DNA of 59,001 bases from a virus. The position numbers were made by a program, and so were the translations under genes. Under the pieces are notes generated by a model. It was not told where the DNA came from. It was given only the letters and a program-made list of their open reading frames with translations, and ran no database searches. The stretch covers positions 1 through 59,001 of the IMG/VR virus record IMGVR_UViG_3300011114_000654, one strand, 5' to 3'. Positions 9,389-57,182 of the stretch are shown here, piece after piece; within the stretch, counting starts at the first letter, position 1; each line of letters starts with the position of its first letter.

Positions 9389-10285
9389 ATGATTACAATA
9401 TTTAACGGCAGGACACGTAGTTTACGTACGTCCGAACAAAGCTCTTTCGTGCAACTTGAACACCGCATACTCCAGCATATGAATAAGTTCACATCAAGTG
9501 AGTGGATGGTGTTCTGCGCTATCTCACTACACGCAGACCAAGAAGGTGTATGCTTCCCATCTATCCCTAGACTAATGAAGTCAACAGGCTTATCAGCACC
9601 TACGATTCGTGCTGCAATCGCAGGGCTAGAGACCAAGGAGATTGAAGGATGTAAGGTTGTATCACGTCGCATGAGGTTCCAAGAAGGACGTCAAACAAGT
9701 AACGAATACATCATCCTTCCCGGCTATCAGGGGGAAAGTATTTTGGAGGGGGAGGGTAAAGAATCTTATAGGGGGGAGGGTAAAGAAATTAGTACCCCTA
9801 TTAACAAGAATCAATTAGAACAAGAACCAATTAACAATAACAAGAATCAATTAGAACGAGAACCCATTAACAATAATCAATTACAAATCACACACTCTGA
9901 GGCTAAGACTCCAAAGAAACGTAAGACTACAGCACTACCAAAGAGTGATGACCCAGCACGAGAGCTTTACGAATCATTCAGGCTATGGAAGTATCCATCA
10001 CTACAGGCATCTGACTTCAACATCACTGAATGGAAGTCCGTCTACTTTGTCCTTTACCAGATGGTGGCAAAGGGTATTAGTGGGGAGACCCTGGTGAATG
10101 CTTGCCAGAACCTTACCAACAAATGGGGTAACGCTGATATGGTCACAATCAACTCTCTATGGAAACACTGGTCAACAGCAACGCAACTTACCGCAACCAT
10201 TGGAACACCTCTAAAGAAAGCTACGACGAGAGACCACGCAACATCAGCTGAGGATGTCATGAAGTTTGTTAGGGGTATGTCTTGA
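9389..10285 (+). CDS. Replication initiator-like HTH protein, 298 aa
   Basis: The N-terminal 110 residues carry a winged-helix pattern (SEWMVFCAISLHAD..CFPSIPRLMKSTGLSAPTIRAAIAGL), as in phage O-type and DnaD-like initiators. The middle (residues 110-195) is low complexity, with repeated EGEGKES and NNKNQLE units encoded by iteron-like DNA. The C-terminal domain (residues 200-298) resembles a helicase-recruiting helical domain. The gene lies upstream of a probable helicase loader and DnaB, the usual lambda-like order, and the repeats make an internal origin plausible. Confidence 0.75.
   Translation: MITIFNGRTRSLRTSEQSSFVQLEHRILQHMNKFTSSEWMVFCAISLHADQEGVCFPSIPRLMKSTGLSAPTIRAAIAGLETKEIEGCKVVSRRMRFQEGRQTSNEYIILPGYQGESILEGEGKESYRGEGKEISTPINKNQLEQEPINNNKNQLEREPINNNQLQITHSEAKTPKKRKTTALPKSDDPARELYESFRLWKYPSLQASDFNITEWKSVYFVLYQMVAKGISGETLVNACQNLTNKWGNADMVTINSLWKHWSTATQLTATIGTPLKKATTRDHATSAEDVMKFVRGMS
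9730..9809 (+). repeat. Origin-like repeats inside the initiator gene
   Basis: Three G-rich/AAAG units stand in tandem: GGGGGAAAGTATTTTG (9730-9745), a block with AAAGAATCTT (9758-9767) and a block ending at 9809 that shares 21 exact bases with 53274-53294. All three recur, inverted and in the same order, at 53274-53361. Downstream AT-rich repeats (9805-9890, AATCAATTAGAAC occurring twice) could be an unwinding element. Confidence 0.7.
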
Positions 10286-10710: not shown

Positions 10711-11200
10711 TAAGGCGTTTGGTACGGTCGCTGGCATACTGAGTGCTATGCCAGCACAACAGCGGTGGGATGATGGCGTTGCGGTAGGCTACGCTCTTTC
10801 CCTAAAAGATGTAGACGATAAGACGGCTATTGACGTAGTCATCGATATGTTGAAGACTGAGGACTTCCGTCCTAGTCCAGCTGCAATCCTTCGTAGGGTA
10901 CGTGGTATCCGGTGTGGTGAAACATCCGTCATTCAGATGTTCAACCGCATCTGCCGGTTCCTCTCTGATGTCCATCCTTTGATGCGTACAGAGCGTGAGG
11001 TTGAGTGGCTAACAGATGGTGACTTACACCCCTTTGATATCGTTGCAGTCAAGTACATCGGTGGATGGCAGGTAGCAGGGAAGATGGATAGAGATAAGCT
11101 CACATCAGCCTTACGTGACTGGACGAAGGATGCAAACGATACAGTCCAGAACCTTGTTCAGATTGATGTCAAGCCTGAAGTAAAGGCAATCTCAGAATGA
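10703..11200 (+). CDS. Probable helicase loader-like protein, 165 aa
   Basis: Unrecognised by sequence alone. It begins MTDKAFGTVAGILSAMP; the middle has EDFRPSPAAILRRVRGI, as in small phage proteins annotated as replicative helicase loaders or inhibitors. It lies directly upstream of, and overlaps by 4 nt, a DnaB helicase gene. The ATG at 10703 follows GGGAG. The loader call rests mainly on this position and the small helical make-up; no Walker motif is present, so it is not a DnaC/DnaI AAA+ loader. Confidence 0.5.
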   Translation: MTDKAFGTVAGILSAMPAQQRWDDGVAVGYALSLKDVDDKTAIDVVIDMLKTEDFRPSPAAILRRVRGIRCGETSVIQMFNRICRFLSDVHPLMRTEREVEWLTDGDLHPFDIVAVKYIGGWQVAGKMDRDKLTSALRDWTKDANDTVQNLVQIDVKPEVKAISE

Positions 11201-12573
11201 CAGAAGTTGAGAAGCGTGTATCAGAGCTTTCATCACGCAAGAAAGATGGGTACTACCCATTCGACCCTATGGTGGAGATGTCCCTTCTTGGGACTATCCT
11301 CCTTGGGGGCAAGAAGGTTCTTGATGATGTAGAGCATATCGTCAACGAGCAGATGTTCTATCGTCCTGGCAACCAAGCTGTTTATTCGTCTATGAAGAGA
11401 GTTGTCGCTCAGACTCAAGGTAGTTGCGATATCGTCCTGCTGAATGATGACCTTACTAATCACAACCAGATAGACCTCATAGGTGGGCTAGCGTACCTAA
11501 TGCAGTTGGGTGATATGGAGTTCACTACATCAACGGCTGTAACGTACGCCAATAAGGTCAAGAGATACCACGAGCTTAGGAACATAGTAGTCAACTCTGA
11601 GTACGCTATGCTCAGGGCGCAACAAGGTGAGATTGACCCTGAGGTAATCACCCTAGACTTCGCTAAAGGAACTGAGATAAAGAATGCAACCAACGTAGTA
11701 TCAAGCGCAGGTGATGTACTACGTGAAAGTATCTTAGGTATCCTAAACGGTCGTAAGAAAGGGATTCCAACAGGCTTTGCTGATATCGATAAGGTAATCA
11801 ACGGATTCAAGGAAGGTGAACTAATCATCCTTGGTGGCAGACCATCTATGGGTAAGTCATCACTTGGACTACAGTATGCAATCAACGCATCAAGGCAATG
11901 CAAGGCGAATGGTGGTGGAGGCGCACTCTTCATTAGCGTAGAGATGTCACAAGACATGATTAGCCAGAGGCTCCTACAGATAATAGGAAACGTAGACGGT
12001 CAAGCACTTCACAATAGCTACTTCTCTAAGGGCGAGCGTGACTCTATGGAGGCTACACAACGTGAGGTGGACACATTACCCCTTTACTTCTCAACAGAGA
12101 CTCCTGTGACCATTCAGAGCATCAGGGCTAAGGCTCGTGATATGCAGCGTAAAGGCACACTATCTATGCTAGTGGTTGACTACCTTCAGATGCTTGATAC
12201 AGGGAAGGAGACGCAGGGTAGGACACGTGATATTGGAGTACTGAGCAGAGGGTTGAAGTCAATAGCCAAAGAGTTTAGTATCCCAGTCGTAGCTTTATCG
12301 TCACTCTCACGTGCAAGTGAACAGCGCAATGACAAGCGACCAATCATGTCAGACCTACGAGAGTCTGGAGATATTGAGTCAGATGCTGACGTGGTACAAT
12401 TTCTGTATAGACCAGACTATTACGCTGAAGATAGGAATGCTTGGGATGAAGATATGCCTTCCGAGACAGAAGTGATAACAGCGAAAAACCGCAATGGGTC
12501 TATTGGAGTATCACGAATCGAGTTCCACAAACGTGTAGCACGTTTCGCTAATATCCCAGAAGGAAGCCTCTAA
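11197..12573 (+). CDS. dnaB: Replicative DNA helicase, DnaB family, 458 aa
   Basis: Unwinds DNA at the replication fork as a hexamer. The N-terminal domain (residues 20-120, PFDPMVEMSLLGTILL) is followed by the RecA-like motor: Walker A GGRPSMGKSSL (about 215-225), LFISVEMSQDMISQRLL, Walker B-type LVVDYLQML, and LSRASEQRNDKRPIMSDLRESGDIESDAD. Length and motif order match full-length DnaB. It overlaps its upstream neighbour by 4 nt and the next gene by TAATG. Confidence 0.95.
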   Translation: MTEVEKRVSELSSRKKDGYYPFDPMVEMSLLGTILLGGKKVLDDVEHIVNEQMFYRPGNQAVYSSMKRVVAQTQGSCDIVLLNDDLTNHNQIDLIGGLAYLMQLGDMEFTTSTAVTYANKVKRYHELRNIVVNSEYAMLRAQQGEIDPEVITLDFAKGTEIKNATNVVSSAGDVLRESILGILNGRKKGIPTGFADIDKVINGFKEGELIILGGRPSMGKSSLGLQYAINASRQCKANGGGGALFISVEMSQDMISQRLLQIIGNVDGQALHNSYFSKGERDSMEATQREVDTLPLYFSTETPVTIQSIRAKARDMQRKGTLSMLVVDYLQMLDTGKETQGRTRDIGVLSRGLKSIAKEFSIPVVALSSLSRASEQRNDKRPIMSDLRESGDIESDADVVQFLYRPDYYAEDRNAWDEDMPSETEVITAKNRNGSIGVSRIEFHKRVARFANIPEGSL

Positions 12574-32773: not shown

Positions 32774-34774
32774 TTAATTCGGGTCTATACCACTTACGTT
32801 GGATGATACCGCAGTCGTTGTAACCGATGCAGTCCAAGCGTCAGTCGTATCATCTTCCTTCTTTACAACCATCTGGGAACTACCGACGTTCACCTTGTTA
32901 CGTATAGCACGTAACGCTGAACGTACAGTACGCTCCTCAGCAGTACCAGCATTCAAACCACTACCAAGGTCTCGTGCAAGCATCTCATCAGCCATAGCAT
33001 TCGTCTGAAGCTTTTCGCCAAACGAACCACTTGCAGTATGACCAACACGCTGTTCATCCCATACACCATCGATAATGTTGTCAGGACTTGCTACAGTAGC
33101 AACTGAGCCAGCAATATTACCTGTTACGTTACCAGCAACACCACCTACGGTTCCTACTACGTTACCAGTAACACTTCCTACTGAACCTGTTGTATTGAAC
33201 GTCTGGGATGTGGAAAGTGAATAGCCAGTTTTGTCTTGTATGAACGCACCTATAGAACCAATATTATTATGTGTTGATGCTGTTGCATCAAGAACTGCTT
33301 GTGCAGTTTGTGCAGCGGTTAGTCCACCACTAGATAACTTGATGCTCATTACAGCACCATTAGTGCCAGAGGCTCCTCTAACAACTACGGTTACATCATC
33401 TGCTCCTGCTTGTAATGCTGCATCGGGAATGTCCAATCTATAGACACCGGGCATATCAACTGCGTCAACCTCGGCAAAGCCGCCTGCTGTCCACGCCTGA
33501 GCGATTGTGCGGGCTACCAGCGGAATGCTGACAGAGGCTGTGCGTGTGCGGTTGTAGCGAGCTGTGAGACCAGAGGTTGAGGCGGTGAGACCTGTCGCAC
33601 CGAGGTAGAGTTCGATGCTTTGTGACGTAGAGCCGGGAGCGATTGTGATGGTTGATGCGTTGCGCTCGGTTGGATTGTATTGACCCGCTATTGTTGCGGT
33701 TGTGTTGTTGTACGAACCAATGTTCGGAGTACCTCCCGCCCAAGCGTCTCCGTAGAAGTCAGTAGCCGGAGTGCCAGTCGATGAACCGGTAGCGTAGGAA
33801 TAGAGTCCGTTCGCGCTAAACCAGTCGTATTGTGTCATCCCCCATAAACGCCAAATACCTGTATTGAATGGGATATAGGCATTCGCAAAGTTGTTTGATT
33901 GGACTATTGCAGCAGCAAGGCTAAAACTATTTGCCACGTTATTAGTAACAGTACAGTTTGCTGTTCCTGACGTAACATTTATAGGTTGTGCTGGACCAGT
34001 TACATTATTTCTTATCGTAACTAAAGATTTACCTGCACTTTGACCAAAACTAATACCAATACCTGTGTTATTCCAAAAGTTGAATGTAGTCCCTTGATAT
34101 GTTGCATTTGCACCACTTATCAAAAAGACATGATTTGTGCTACCTACACCAACGCATCTATCAACAGTCAATCCGTAAACGTAATCTTGTGTTGCTGGGC
34201 TATTTTTACCAATACTTCCATCGATATATACGTTGGCATTTCCAAAACCTATAAAATGACATTGTTGGATAAGATAATTTTTAGTAAGTCCATTTGTTGT
34301 AGTGTCGGTAACCTGAATAGCACCGTCTACACCACAGTTCATAAATAAACATTTACGCCATTTTATTTCTACACAGTTTAGAAGACTAAATAGACCTCTG
34401 TTTGTAGCCGTTTCACATATTAAGTTTTCAAAGTTTAGATAGTCTTTACTTGTCATTACAAACAAATATTGATTGACGTTTGCTGCTCCTGTATCGCTTA
34501 TTAACCTAGTGGTAATCAAGACACGACCGGGTGTAATACCGCTAAACTGTGAAGCGGTCGGATTTCCATAGACAAATGTTGGAGCCGTATAAGTACCGCC
34601 TACCGTAATCTGTGCATTCTGCCTGTAGTCACCGGGAGCGATGTACAGAGTATCACCGGAGCCAATACCAGTAGCACCTAATGCTTTGGCAATGGTTTGC
34701 CACGCTTGACCGGAACCGGAACCTGTACCAGTATTTGAATCGTTACCGTCCGTACGGACATAATAAATCGCCAT
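32774..34774 (-). CDS. Tail spike with parallel beta-helix, 666 aa (copy 2)
   Basis: N-terminus MAIYYVRTDGNDSNTGTGSGSG-QAWQTIAKAL...GDTLYIAPGDY is the DUF1565/pectate-lyase-like entry into a right-handed beta-helix, used by spikes that bind or cut surface polysaccharide. The middle (about 100-330) has Asn/Val ladders. The C-terminus (TERNASTITIAPGSTSQSIEL onward, about residue 370-666) closely matches the second spike at 35262-37103. No catalytic residues can be named. Part of a tandem duplicated module. Confidence 0.75.
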   Translation of the reverse strand: MAIYYVRTDGNDSNTGTGSGSGQAWQTIAKALGATGIGSGDTLYIAPGDYRQNAQITVGGTYTAPTFVYGNPTASQFSGITPGRVLITTRLISDTGAANVNQYLFVMTSKDYLNFENLICETATNRGLFSLLNCVEIKWRKCLFMNCGVDGAIQVTDTTTNGLTKNYLIQQCHFIGFGNANVYIDGSIGKNSPATQDYVYGLTVDRCVGVGSTNHVFLISGANATYQGTTFNFWNNTGIGISFGQSAGKSLVTIRNNVTGPAQPINVTSGTANCTVTNNVANSFSLAAAIVQSNNFANAYIPFNTGIWRLWGMTQYDWFSANGLYSYATGSSTGTPATDFYGDAWAGGTPNIGSYNNTTATIAGQYNPTERNASTITIAPGSTSQSIELYLGATGLTASTSGLTARYNRTRTASVSIPLVARTIAQAWTAGGFAEVDAVDMPGVYRLDIPDAALQAGADDVTVVVRGASGTNGAVMSIKLSSGGLTAAQTAQAVLDATASTHNNIGSIGAFIQDKTGYSLSTSQTFNTTGSVGSVTGNVVGTVGGVAGNVTGNIAGSVATVASPDNIIDGVWDEQRVGHTASGSFGEKLQTNAMADEMLARDLGSGLNAGTAEERTVRSALRAIRNKVNVGSSQMVVKKEDDTTDAWTASVTTTAVSSNVSGIDPN

Positions 34775-34775
34775 A

Positions 34776-35003
34776 TTATTCAGCCGTTCCCGCTACGATT
34801 TCAGCCGCAATGTAGGTCATAAACTGTTGAACCACGTTCAACTGAAACTGTTCATCCTGCTGTACATACCAAGCAAAAACATCCGTTCCATCAGGTCCAA
34901 AGTCTGCAATCTTGCGAAACTGATAATCAAGGATGTCACCCTTGATGTTGTAGTTACCGGGTGAGTTTTCAAGAGCTGTGATGATAATGTCTCGGAAGTT
35001 CAT
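34776..35003 (-). CDS. Small spike-associated protein, 75 aa (copy 2)
   Basis: Paralogue of the 75-aa protein at 37103-37330. Both keep NSPG, GDI.D, FG..GT.VF.W.V.QD.QFQ and the identical C-terminus EIVAGTAE; the rest has diverged. Each copy lies directly upstream of its spike gene. A chaperone or attachment role for the spike is a reasonable inference from this one-to-one pairing. Confidence 0.65.
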   Translation of the reverse strand: MNFRDIIITALENSPGNYNIKGDILDYQFRKIADFGPDGTDVFAWYVQQDEQFQLNVVQQFMTYIAAEIVAGTAE

Positions 35004-35254
35004 TTGCCCACCTTCAAAGCATTCACACCCGTACCCTTGAAAGGCATCGTCAAGAAGCCGAGCGCAGCACTCATCGCAGCAGTAAGACCAGCCGCTACAG
35101 CCTTGCCGCCGTACAGTGCCATCACTGCGCCGAGCTCGGAAATGTCGTGTGCTTCGGATGTGCGGATGCCGTCACCGAACACAGTGCTGAAGGACGCAAC
35201 AAAGGCGATCAAGACAATAATCAGCAACCTACTTATACTTATTTGTTTCATCAT
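35000..35254 (-). CDS. Small membrane protein, 84 aa (copy 2)
   Basis: I chose ATG 35254 because AGGAC stands 6 nt upstream and it clears the upstream spike stop. Residues 1-25 (ISISRLLIIVLIAFVASFSTVF) form a membrane helix or signal anchor. Residues 48-70 (GGKAVAAGLTAAMSAALGFL) form a second, Ala/Gly-rich helix. The last 40 residues are nearly identical to the 40-aa protein at 37327-37449. Holin-like topology is possible. The high GC of this stretch sets it apart from its surroundings. Confidence 0.6.
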   Translation of the reverse strand: MMKQISISRLLIIVLIAFVASFSTVFGDGIRTSEAHDISELGAVMALYGGKAVAAGLTAAMSAALGFLTMPFKGTGVNALKVGK

Positions 35255-35261
35255 ACTTGTC

Positions 35262-37103
35262 CTAACTAGGGTCAACGCCCGTAATCGTTTTACTGCTATC
35301 ACTACTACTTACAGTTGCTGACCACGCAGTACTTGCATCATCTTCTTTGTATACAGTCATCTCATTATTGATGACTGTTGTCTTATTGCGTAAGCCTCTT
35401 AGAGCAGACCTTACAGTCCGCTCATTAATAGCACCTGCACCTGAACCACTACCTATCTCTCTCGCGAGGAGTTCATCTGCTAGTACATTAGCATTTAGAC
35501 GCTGACCAGTAGTGCCAGCAGTTGTGTGGCTAGAAAGTTGCTCATCCCACACAAGTATAGGAATCTCACCAACCTCTTGGTCTATGCCGTTAGCCAGTCC
35601 ATTAGTCTCAGTGAGTATGCCACCCATTGTCGTAGCATCAACGTAACCAGCAGGGCTAGTACCCCAAACAGCCGCGCCAGTTTGCGCAGCTGTCAATCCA
35701 CCACTACTCAACGTTACTGTAAGTACCGCACCATTAGTACCTGATGCACCACGTACAACAATAGTTACGTCTGAGGAACCTGCCGCGAATGCAGCATCGG
35801 GAACGTCTAAGCGATAAACACCAGGAGTAAGCGAGGAGCTTATCTCTGCAAAGCCACCAGAAGCCCACGAGCCGGTTGCCGTTTGCGTCACCAGAGTGAT
35901 TGCTACCGGTGCGCTACGGTTTCGGACGTAGTAAGCAGATAAGCCAGATGTCGCAAAGGTTAGACCTGTTGCACCAAGGTATAGTTCGATGCTTTGGGAT
36001 GTTGAGCCGGGAGCGATTGTGATGGTGGAGGCGTTGCGCTCGGTAGGGTTGTAGTTACCGACTGCGCCTATTGCCCTAAATGTTCCTGAGCCTGCGTCTG
36101 GTTTGGCTCCAGTCCACGTCACACCATAAATATCGGTAGCAGGTGCGCCTGTCGCATTACCAAAGTTAGTATTTATAGAGCCAAAGTATGAGGTGTAAAT
36201 TTGTAGATTATTTAACCCTACAAGTAACGTCTCACCAAAATCAACGCCGATGTCACCTACACTACTTGACGTGCCATTATCGGCTACATTAAGTCTCGCA
36301 CTATTGCCAAGTAAGCGATTAAAGTTCTCAATTATTGTGTTTGACACGCCATTAGAAAACGTGTCTATGTCGCTTAAAATTAGCGAATTACGAACAGTAA
36401 CCGGGAATGTAACACTTCCGTTATTACAAAAGACACCCCAACCTTTAACAATTATGGTGCAGTTCATAACTGCCACTTGCGCACCTGTCGAACTGATTGT
36501 CTGGTTGTTGCTATTCAGAAACAATGAATTTGTTACTGTTGAACCATCAGCAACATTTTGCCCAGTTATGCTTAGTTGACTGGTTCCACCAAAGAAAATA
36601 CATCTAGTCACTGAGATATTTACAGCGGTGCTTGTTGGGCTAGTAACAGCCAGTAATTGAGCAGCGTTCAATCTCGCTATAAACGCACATTCAGTAAACT
36701 TCAAATTGGTACAAGTCGTAAAACTTAGACCATTGTTGTTTAATTTGAATTGTATGTTTTGAAAATGCAGGTAGTTTTTAGTGGTCGCAGAGACTACGTT
36801 TCCAGAATAACCAGCCCCTGATAATGTTGAGTTGTAATTAGTTATAACAACAGGCCCGGCGGTAACGCCGGCAAAAACAGTACACGTTGGGTCACCAATG
36901 ATATTAGTTTCTACCGTTGGGTTTGTTATGGTTACAGATATCTGATTTGTATACACACCCGGTGCCACGTACAAAGTGTCACCACTTGCAAAGCCAGATG
37001 AACTAGACAAGGCATAAGCGACTGTGGCCCACGCTTGACCAGACGCTTGACCAGTGCCTGTGTTTGCGTTGTTGCCGTCTAATCGAACATAGTAAGTTGC
37101 CAT
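35262..37103 (-). CDS. Tail spike with parallel beta-helix, 613 aa (copy 1)
   Basis: The start is the ATG at 37103 in a TAATG overlap; an in-frame upstream start is rejected because it lies inside the 75-aa gene and has no counterpart in copy 2. MATYYVRLDGNNANTGTGQASG-QAWATVAYAL...ASGDTLYVAPGVY mirrors copy 2. Residues 100-330 differ strongly, while the C-terminal part (YNPTERNASTITIAPGSTSQ onward) is near-identical to copy 2. This suggests swapping of the receptor-binding middle. Confidence 0.75.
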   Translation of the reverse strand: MATYYVRLDGNNANTGTGQASGQAWATVAYALSSSSGFASGDTLYVAPGVYTNQISVTITNPTVETNIIGDPTCTVFAGVTAGPVVITNYNSTLSGAGYSGNVVSATTKNYLHFQNIQFKLNNNGLSFTTCTNLKFTECAFIARLNAAQLLAVTSPTSTAVNISVTRCIFFGGTSQLSITGQNVADGSTVTNSLFLNSNNQTISSTGAQVAVMNCTIIVKGWGVFCNNGSVTFPVTVRNSLILSDIDTFSNGVSNTIIENFNRLLGNSARLNVADNGTSSSVGDIGVDFGETLLVGLNNLQIYTSYFGSINTNFGNATGAPATDIYGVTWTGAKPDAGSGTFRAIGAVGNYNPTERNASTITIAPGSTSQSIELYLGATGLTFATSGLSAYYVRNRSAPVAITLVTQTATGSWASGGFAEISSSLTPGVYRLDVPDAAFAAGSSDVTIVVRGASGTNGAVLTVTLSSGGLTAAQTGAAVWGTSPAGYVDATTMGGILTETNGLANGIDQEVGEIPILVWDEQLSSHTTAGTTGQRLNANVLADELLAREIGSGSGAGAINERTVRSALRGLRNKTTVINNEMTVYKEDDASTAWSATVSSSDSSKTITGVDPS

Positions 37104-37330
37104 TATTCCGCTGTTCCTGCGACAATTTCCTGGGCCATAATCACTGAAAACTGAGTGCTGTAGTTCTGCTGAAACTGAGCATCCTGCGTAACCCACCAGC
37201 CGAATACACTTGTACCATTCTCGCCGAATGAACCGAGCAGGTTGCCTTCGTTGTCGTAGATGTCACCAAAGACAATCCAATCACCCGGACTGTTTGGGTT
37301 AGGCTCTAAACGATAGTTTTGCAGGTTCAT
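37103..37330 (-). CDS. Small spike-associated protein, 75 aa (copy 1)
   Basis: Paralogue of 34776-35003 (shared GDI.D, FG..GT.VF.W.V.QD.QFQ, and EIVAGTAE at the end). It overlaps the 40-aa gene upstream by 4 nt and the spike gene downstream by TAATG. Role inferred only from its constant position before a spike. Confidence 0.65.
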   Translation of the reverse strand: MNLQNYRLEPNPNSPGDWIVFGDIYDNEGNLLGSFGENGTSVFGWWVTQDAQFQQNYSTQFSVIMAQEIVAGTAE

Positions 37331-37449
37331 TTGCCCACCTTCAAACTGTTCGCATTCGTCCCCTTGAACGGCATCGTCAAGAAGCCAAGCGCAGCACTCA
37401 TCGCAGCAGAGACACCAGCCGCTACAGCCTTGCCGCCGTAGACCGCCAT
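37327..37449 (-). CDS. Truncated paralogue of the small membrane protein, 40 aa
   Basis: The frame starts in a TGATG overlap with the gene at 37449-37628 and encodes MAVYGGKAVAAGVSAAMSAA and GFLTMPFKG, then ends NSLKVGK. It corresponds to the last 40 residues of the 84-aa protein at 35000-35254, with the N-terminal membrane helix missing. It keeps one Ala/Gly-rich helix. It may be a functional short form or a decaying remnant left by the duplication. Confidence 0.6.
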   Translation of the reverse strand: MAVYGGKAVAAGVSAAMSAALGFLTMPFKGTNANSLKVGK

Positions 37450-37628
37450 CACTTCTTTACCTTCCTTGCATCAATAGCAAGTATGACCACATCACGTACC
37501 TTTTCAAGGTCAGATGTAGACAGGAATTCAAGGTTCTCAATAATCTGGTTCACTACAAGCATCTCACCAAAAGGAATCTTGACTTCAGGCACACCAGTCT
37601 TCTTTAGGAACTTACTTAGCCAACTCAT
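37449..37628 (-). CDS. Small hypothetical protein, 59 aa
   Basis: The start overlaps the previous stop (ATGA), with AAGGAGG 7 nt upstream, a strong ribosome site. The sequence MSWLSKFLKKTGVPEVKIPF has an amphipathic N-terminal helix and no membrane span; the rest is a short alpha/beta-like stretch ending DARKVKK. It lies among the three small genes after the adaptors, where lysis or tail-completion genes are expected. Function unknown. Confidence 0.65.
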   Translation of the reverse strand: MSWLSKFLKKTGVPEVKIPFGEMLVVNQIIENLEFLSTSDLEKVRDVVILAIDARKVKK

Positions 37629-52946: not shown

Positions 52947-53204
52947 TTATTTGACGCTTCTGTCAGGGTTTCTTTTGAAACTGCGATTGGTCGCAGGTTT
53001 CACCAACCGTAGGTTGGAAGGTGCATTAGTACCACCTTTTGAAAGTGGTTTCTTGTGGTCGATGTCTTTACCCTTACGGTCTACCCCGTTAGCGTCCATA
53101 GCCCTACGAGCCTTCTGGCGTTCCATACGGGTAGGGTGTTCACCTCTAGCGACTTGCTGTGCGTATTCCTTTTTGTAGGGTCTCTCTTTGTTCACGTATG
53201 GCAT
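52947..53204 (-). CDS. HNH-like basic protein, 85 aa (leaderless)
   Basis: The segment KDIDHKKPLSKGGTNAPSNLRL and the following NRSFKRNPD have the HNH-nuclease layout (D-x-D/H-H, G-G, N-L-R, N). It is very basic, fitting DNA binding or cutting. The ATG at 53204 follows a minus-strand -10 TATGAT by exactly 6 nt, with no SD, so the message should be leaderless. It borders the origin-like region at 53.2-53.4 kb. Confidence 0.7.
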   Translation of the reverse strand: MPYVNKERPYKKEYAQQVARGEHPTRMERQKARRAMDANGVDRKGKDIDHKKPLSKGGTNAPSNLRLVKPATNRSFKRNPDRSVK

Positions 53205-53226
53205 AGCCAAATCATAACATAAGCTC

Positions 53227-53362
53227 TACGCGCGTATTTATATATATACATATGTAATATGTATATTAATCTCTCTTGTTAATAGGGGTACTAAATTCTT
53301 TCCCCCTCAATAACCGGGATAGGAAAGATTCTTTCCAATACCCCTCAAAATACTTTCCCCCA
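53227..53362. other. Origin-like region: AT-rich DNA plus inverted initiator repeats
   Basis: 53227-53273 is A/T-dominated (TATTTATATATATACATATG and TAATATGTATATTAA) beside a CGCGCG step, a candidate unwinding element. 53274-53361 contains, inverted and in order, the three repeat blocks of 9730-9809 (21, about 10 and 16 exact bases). The central GGAAAGATTCTTTCC is a perfect palindrome. No gene explains this region. Together these features resemble a replication origin; alternatively it is a remnant of a second initiator gene. Confidence 0.6.
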
Positions 53363-53439: not shown

Positions 53440-53556
53440 ATGAGTACCGCAAAAAAGACTAATCCAACCCTTTGGAGTAAGGTAGTAAGTGACGTAAAGT
53501 CATCATCTAAAGGTGGTGATTCAGGTGAATGGTCTTATGAAGGTTATTTATTTTAA
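53440..53556 (+). CDS. Short DUF5872-like N-terminal fragment, 38 aa
   Basis: The frame reads TNPTLWSKVVSDVKSSSKGG then SGEWSYEGYLF and stops. The first part resembles the N-terminus of small phage proteins with 'kp.LW..v...v....kGG..GqWSArKa' (DUF5872-like), but after GEWS the expected ARKAQ is missing. An HNH gene starts 2 nt later. Downstream of that gene a short frame reads FVAQPKTVAKKVAKFR then stop. The gene may therefore have been truncated by insertion of the nuclease gene. Leaderless promoter upstream. Confidence 0.5.
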   Translation: MSTAKKTNPTLWSKVVSDVKSSSKGGDSGEWSYEGYLF

Positions 53557-53558
53557 AT

Positions 53559-54017
53559 ATGTGTAATCAATACAAGGTATGCACAAAGTGTAAAGAGTCT
53601 AAGTTAATAAGTTCATTCAGGAGTAGGGGTGGAAATCTTTCACATTTACTAAAAAGCCACTGTAATACCTGTTTGTATAAAACTCATAAAAATTGGGTCA
53701 GTAATAATCAAGATAGAGTTGATGAGTATAGAGAAAGAGATAGTTGGACCTTAGTTAAACGATGTGCTAGATATGATTTAAGTCCTGAGCAATTTATTGA
53801 CAAATACGAAAGACAAGAAAGGTGTTGTGCAATTTGCCACTCTGAAATAAATATAGTTGATAGTGCAATTGACCATAATCATATAACTGGAGAGTTTAGA
53901 GGAATCTTATGCAAACAATGTAATAGAGCATTGGGTATGTTTAAGGATAGTCCTACTGTTTTGAGAAATGCATTGGAGTACTTAGAATCATATGGTAGTT
54001 ATGGTGATGAGGATTAA
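53559..54017 (+). CDS. Endonuclease VII-type HNH protein, 152 aa
   Basis: Cys-rich N-terminus (CTKCKESKLISSF, HCNTCLYKTH) and a His-Cys box core CAICHSEINIVDSAIDHNHITGEFRGILCKQCNRALGMFKD, the recombination endonuclease VII/HNH pattern with paired zinc-binding CxxC motifs and catalytic DHNH. The composition is more AT-rich than neighbours, suggesting recent acquisition as a mobile homing-type gene. It starts 2 nt after the 38-codon fragment gene. Confidence 0.85.
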   Translation: MCNQYKVCTKCKESKLISSFRSRGGNLSHLLKSHCNTCLYKTHKNWVSNNQDRVDEYRERDSWTLVKRCARYDLSPEQFIDKYERQERCCAICHSEINIVDSAIDHNHITGEFRGILCKQCNRALGMFKDSPTVLRNALEYLESYGSYGDED

Positions 54018-56616: not shown

Positions 56617-57182
56617 CAGCGTCACAATCTATCCACCAACTGGATAATATCTATCCATTAGCACGAAGTGCGTGGGCGTACTGCATACCTATCTGAATAG
56701 CATAGCCTTGATACGCACACCATACGCAGCCTTACAATACACGCTACTACAGCACTACCTATCAATCTTCTACCTACGTATATATTGAATCTAACAGTAT
56801 TTGTACACCTTACAATTAGAGTAGATGGATAGGAAAGATTCTTTCTAGTTGTTACACTTAGCAAGTATGTAGTAGTAGGAGTTAGTTTCTACGATGGGAG
56901 AAAGGTAGATGTGGATAGGATAGGGATGTAAATGTCGGAGTCCCCCCCTACCACACTGCGCACTGGGGTGGGAGCTTGCCTTACCCCCTCCCCCTAGTCA
57001 GCAGATTGGAAAAAAGGGAGTCCTCATTTTCTACCTAGTCCGCAGATTGGACATACCAGCTGGTGGATTCCGCTGCGGGTGGTAAACAATAATTTCAAGC
57101 TTAGTGTATGCAACAATTGTGTATAGAATGGAACGCGCGCGCGTGATAGCACGATCGATTCCATTTGTCAAGCTTTTACCAG
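56617..57182. other. Long non-coding region with repeats and G/C runs
   Basis: About 570 bp without a credible gene. It contains a 19-base copy of GGATAGGAAAGATTCTTTC (56827-56845) shared with the origin-like region, a run of seven C (56942-56948), G/C-rich pyrimidine blocks (56980-56994), two direct copies of CCTAGTC(A/C)GCAGATTGGA 41 bp apart (56993-57010 and 57034-57051), and an alternating CGCGCGCG step with a CGATCG palindrome (57132-57155). A packaging, origin or regulatory function is plausible. Confidence 0.6.

Follow-up and report, generated by a model that had tools for sequence, protein, structure and literature searches.

The initiator gene and the intergenic site

The window, meaning the whole 59,001-bp stretch of virus DNA that was analysed (IMG/VR record IMGVR_UViG_3300011114_000654), carries a 25-bp terminal direct repeat and is therefore probably circular. 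When the record is taken as a circle, two similar iteron sites lie 15.4 kb apart, one inside a replication initiator gene and one in intergenic DNA. The features at and near the in-gene site are as follows.

9389-10285, + strand: replication initiator gene, 298 aa (Pfam HTH_36, 1.6e-9; PHROGs; AlphaFold2 model)
9731-9747, 9754-9770 and 9778-9794, + strand: cores of three in-gene iterons (sequence; synonymous constraint)
9794-9809, + strand: in-gene copy of the trailing motif ACCCCTATTAACAAGA, common to both sites
9781-9820, + strand: weak melting element, the 40 bp of lowest duplex stability within the initiator gene (genome-wide, in the top 0.23%)
11197-12573, + strand: DnaB-type replicative helicase gene, downstream of the initiator (Pfam DnaB_C, 3.8e-80)

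PHROGs matches of the initiator were to replication initiation (5.8e-9) and O-like (4e-7 and 2.5e-5). The AlphaFold2 model comprised a confident winged-helix domain (about residues 20-109), a disordered linker (115-179) and a C-terminal helical domain (about 189-266), which is the layout of an O-like initiator. The iterons encode the disordered linker between the two domains and are followed by AT-rich DNA, the arrangement of lambda-O-type genes; the 9781-9820 element overlaps the last in-gene iteron and extends past its end. For the C-terminal domain, neither a sequence match nor a clear fold match was obtained. PDB sequence and fold searches with the initiator gave nothing significant, the best hit (E 0.012) being a MarR-type winged-helix regulator, with a RepA N-domain at 0.11. 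No relatives of the initiator were found in cellular genome contigs.

Third-base identity at conserved fourfold codons was compared among 14 relatives. For pairs below 70% identity it was 0.64-0.73 in iteron columns versus 0.30-0.34 in the rest of the gene, and of 69 iteron codons for glycine, 68 were GGG or GGT. Together, these values argue that the DNA itself is under selection.

The second site and its surroundings contain the following features.

52947-53210, - strand: HNH-like gene, first of a leftward cluster with terminase, portal and capsid/head genes
53235-53274: candidate DNA unwinding element, the 40-bp window with the lowest duplex stability in the record (nearest-neighbour energy)
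53244-53266: AT-rich palindrome ATATACATATTACATATGTATAT, inside the unwinding element, kept in relatives as ACATACTACGTATGT
53274-53289, - strand: intergenic copy of the trailing motif ACCCCTATTAACAAGA
53360-53344, 53338-53322 and 53305-53289 (53289-53360 overall), - strand: cores of the three iterons of the intergenic site, in inverted orientation to those of the gene
53274-53294: 21-bp block, reverse complement of 9789-9809
53325-53334: 10-bp block, reverse complement of 9758-9767
53346-53361: 16-bp block, reverse complement of 9730-9745
53440-53556, + strand: small ORF (MSTAKKTNP...), shortened here but full-length in relatives, and pointing away from the HNH gene

The first-pass annotation had reported that three exact blocks of 21, 10 and 16 bp from 9730-9809 recur inverted and in order at 53274-53361, and these coordinates were confirmed. 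An additional 10-bp exact block is common to both sites out of order, and a single alignment of the gene site with the intergenic site gave 76% identity over 89 columns (E 4e-12). With the in-gene iterons as query, the window's own genome scored 61.1 bits, far above 150 dinucleotide shuffles (mean 23, maximum 31.1). The annotation was also correct in placing the second site in non-coding DNA, as it falls between divergent genes. The neighbouring 47 bp, described there as nearly pure A/T, are AT-rich to a lesser degree: 53227-53273 is 77% A+T, and 89% is reached in 53235-53272.

Read on the minus strand, the intergenic site consists of the three iterons, then ACCCCTATTAACAAGA, then AT-rich DNA with the palindrome. 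Its iteron cores match those of the gene pairwise and in order (GGGGAAAGTATTTTG; GGAAAGAATCTT; GAAAGAAtTTAGTACCCC), and the middle one holds a perfect palindrome, GGAAAGATTCTTTCC, at 53322-53336. The AT-rich palindrome has the form ACATAC-TAC-GTATGT in most relatives and ACATAT-TAC-ATATGT in the window and in relative G002; both arms are changed, which weakly suggests one compensatory change. This palindrome could form a hairpin (DNA fold z -2.3) or serve as an additional protein site.

Several other features of this region were recorded. A TATGAT hexamer lies six bases before the HNH start codon (53205-53216, - strand) and is seen again in several relatives; it is possibly a late promoter of leaderless type, immediately next to the melting element. 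A scan of the intergenic region for sigma-70-like promoters found none, the consensus used being that of sigma-70, which may not be the host's type. An Rfam search for an RNA element at the site gave no match. Within 53440-54017, the small AKKTNP gene is interrupted by an endonuclease VII gene at 53559-54017; the same junction occurs in L040, other relatives have the whole gene, and the endonuclease gene looks like a recent insertion of homing type. The GC-skew minimum is at 53.5 kb and in several relatives is located away from the site; since it coincides with the switch in gene direction, it does not discriminate as an origin test and was dropped as evidence. At 56827-56845, near another AT-rich stretch, 19 bp match the palindromic middle iteron exactly (GGATAGGAAAGATTCTTTC), and G002 keeps the palindrome; this is possibly a third initiator site.

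Elsewhere in the record, three intergenic elements of 61 bp containing TGTGnnATATnnCACAC (115-175, 789-849 and 2355-2415) are 74-80% alike and precede early genes; they are probably shared promoters or operators. A tandem duplication of about 2.3 kb spans tail-region genes at 32774-37453, its copies (33304-35126 and 35678-37453) being 71-86% identical.

The second site in related phages

Relatives were gathered with initiator, HNH protein and DNA-pattern searches, which yielded 11 further records of sufficient length and 12 genomes with the window. The iterons of each initiator gene were then searched against their own genome with the initiator gene masked, using 150 shuffles as control. In nine of the 12 genomes, the window included, the own-gene query scored above all shuffles; in G035, 2 of 150 shuffles scored as high, and in G032 and G007 no match stood out. 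For G032, a second site at 42.97-43.0 kb was located via queries from other genomes (44 bits with the iterons of G027), and for G007 one at 38.1 kb was found with the site of its relative G035. Each of the 12 genomes thus has a second iteron site outside the initiator gene, though the evidence is weaker for G035, G032 and G007. The comparison with relatives suggested in the first-pass annotation came out in favour of the candidate origin.

The second site was always upstream of the initiator gene, at 7-17 kb where the distance was measurable (the G022 record is incomplete), and inverted relative to it wherever orientation was readable. Among all viral contigs, matches of the trailing motif together with iterons occurred in two contexts only, within initiator genes and, upstream of the HNH gene, at the intergenic site. 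Gene neighbourhoods are shared by the window, G003, G022, G023 and G031, by G027 and G032, and by G033-G035; the second site is flanked by HNH and AKKTNP genes, by endolysin-like and small membrane protein genes, or by dUTPase-like and small membrane protein genes, depending on lineage. The three distinct neighbourhoods point to about three independent placements of the second site, and the variation in flanking genes argues against an operator of one particular gene.

Duplex stability was compared in the same genomes. The second site coincides with the genome's least stable 40 bp in the window, G002, G023 and G027 and with the second least stable in G003, G022 and G032, that is, with one of the two least stable stretches in 7 of 12 genomes. 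In G033, G034 and G035 the second site is palindromic and without a melting element (1.3-6.3% of windows are as unstable); there the in-gene site lies at the genome's least stable DNA (G033) or in the top 0.1% (G034 and G035). Across relatives, either the one site or the other thus seems to carry the unwinding element.

The sequence of the iteron core varies with lineage, being GGGTAAAGAAT in the window, GGGTCAAGTTTTTTATA in G003, where it is common to both sites, GGGTnTCA in G027 and G032, and GGGTGCAgAA in G033-G035. G022 and G023 have a trailing motif shortened by one base (CCCCTTTAACAAG), both in the gene and at the intergenic site. Iteron identity within own pairs was 0.77 versus 0.58 in permuted pairs, and 13 of 40,320 permutations were as high, in a comparison for which iterons were picked by eye and shared ancestry was left in the statistic. 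On cross-comparison, with kinship ignored, the own gene was the top query in only 4 of 12 genomes; strict genome-by-genome specificity was therefore dropped, and co-variation is claimed at the level of lineages. Resemblance within a genome would be expected from co-evolution of binding and from copying between the sites alike. In G027, gene and intergenic site are similar over about 120 bp at 73%, and the extent of this match suggests that the intergenic site may well be derived from the gene by copying.

A different iteron set (GGGTATCAAA / GGGTCTCATTTTTGA) was observed upstream of the HNH gene in L053 (record G021), with an orientation to the HNH gene opposite to that in the window. It ends in CATTACATTGAA, which recurs as trailing motif in further initiator genes (L165, L168 and L169).

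A proposed two-site origin system and its alternatives

In lambda, ori lies inside gene O, where iterons encoding the linker between the DNA-binding and C-terminal domains are followed by AT-rich DNA. The window's in-gene site is built likewise; only the in-gene origin is known from lambda, and the phage studied here differs in also having an inverted array in intergenic DNA, whose melting element is the stronger one. A cultured phage with a similar gene is Microbacterium phage Margaery (NC_073366), whose helix-turn-helix gene gp51 is 35.9% identical over residues 33-110 and has three 22-bp linker iterons, immediately after which come the least stable 40 bp in the 38 kb read. Outside gp51, it differs in having a single iteron-like copy (CCAGGAGAGGGCG; L212:13548-13566), which is intergenic, in direct orientation and, by its looks, part of a terminator hairpin; no clear second origin was seen in the 38 kb read.

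The closest known arrangement is that of Bacillus phage SPP1, in which the initiator's own gene holds one site and the other lies in non-coding DNA, at a distance of about 12-13 kb on the circular map (PMC6316719; PMC3485210). The SPP1 initiator G38P (gp38) binds both oriL and oriR, oriR has been proposed as a barrier triggering the switch to concatemer synthesis, and a phage DnaB-type helicase is encoded (PMC6316719; PMC3485210). Compared with SPP1 as published, the window likewise has an in-gene array (9731-9794), a second similar array in distant non-coding DNA (53289-53360), an AT-rich element at both sites, which the second site of G033, G034 and G035 lacks, and a DnaB-type helicase gene. 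Its second site is located at the divergence of two transcription units, a difference from SPP1, and is inverted to the first.

Based on the duplication of the sites, their recurrence in relatives, the likeness to own iterons, synonymous constraint, location and duplex instability, the phage probably has two replication origins, like SPP1, and we assign a probability of roughly 0.63 to the intergenic site being the initiator-bound origin of such a two-site system. The origin proposed for this site in the first-pass annotation has gained from comparison, through second sites in 12 of 12 genomes, their likeness to own iterons and their position at least or second least stable DNA in 7 of 12, and is as a whole partly supported. 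From these observations we infer initiator binding, melting, helicase loading and the choice of firing site. Both blocks would be binding arrays for the same phage replication initiator, the in-gene array in the style of lambda O and SPP1 oriL, the intergenic array arranged as an origin with three iterons, a fixed ACCCCTATTAACAAGA and a palindromic AT-rich melting element. Iteron binding by the winged-helix domain would strain the AT-rich DNA open, and the initiator would recruit the phage's DnaB-type helicase, whose gene lies 1.4 kb downstream of its own. Having by far the stronger melting element, the intergenic site would be the main start; the in-gene site could act as second origin, roadblock or titration/autoregulatory site, as proposed for SPP1 oriL/oriR.

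The main rival, unlikely for the window and possible especially in the clade of G033, G034 and G035, is an operator: initiator bound at the intergenic iterons would repress or activate the divergent late (HNH-led) and early promoters, coupling replication to the transcription switch, and the in-gene site would be the only origin. The intergenic site lies exactly where the two main transcription units diverge, between the expected positions of divergent promoters, so a regulatory role would also explain its conservation; the perfect palindrome of the middle iteron fits such a role, as do the palindromic second sites of that clade, which lack a melting element while the in-gene site there is at very unstable DNA. 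Against this, the site keeps its likeness to the initiator's iterons as its neighbours change between lineages, the genome's strongest melting element adjoins it in four genomes, and the promoter scan of the region was negative for the sigma-70-like type, from which the host's promoters may differ.

It is also rather doubtful that the origin in use has shifted between two sites that are both maintained, the strong melting element being intergenic in some lineages and in-gene in others, where the second copy would now be an operator.

We consider it improbable that the intergenic site serves chiefly to block forks or to switch the mode of replication, the role suggested for SPP1 oriR, with forks from the in-gene site stalling at initiator bound 15 kb away and giving way to recombination-dependent concatemer synthesis. 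Architecture and spacing resemble those of SPP1, the phage encodes an Erf-like annealing protein, and endonuclease VII adjoins the site; yet a barrier needs no melting element, and the intergenic site has the strongest one, and the endonuclease VII gene has the appearance of a late arrival.

A decayed duplicate of the initiator gene, as considered in the first-pass annotation, or a chance or recent copy without function, is very improbable: the motif is partly in the gene's frame, the frame ending STPINKRD noted earlier does exist, and the G027 match makes it quite possible that the site arose by copying, but the upstream part of that frame is out of frame with the initiator gene, similarity ends at the 9730-9809 block and includes frame changes, and all 12 genomes keep the site with iterons and palindrome conserved and the reading frame not.

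Significance of the paired sites

A phage initiator with dual origins is already known from SPP1, and the phages described here form a separate, uncultured family. If the two-site origin reading holds, their two sites with similar spacing, inverted orientation and own-like iterons would provide natural variants with which to ask what a second origin does, a role that in SPP1 is still a model; a start, a roadblock or a switch are the roles at stake. The initiator/iteron pairs of differing specificity would be usable for mapping recognition. If instead the origin shifts between the sites, one initiator would serve two interchangeable origins, or would couple replication to the switch from early to late transcription.
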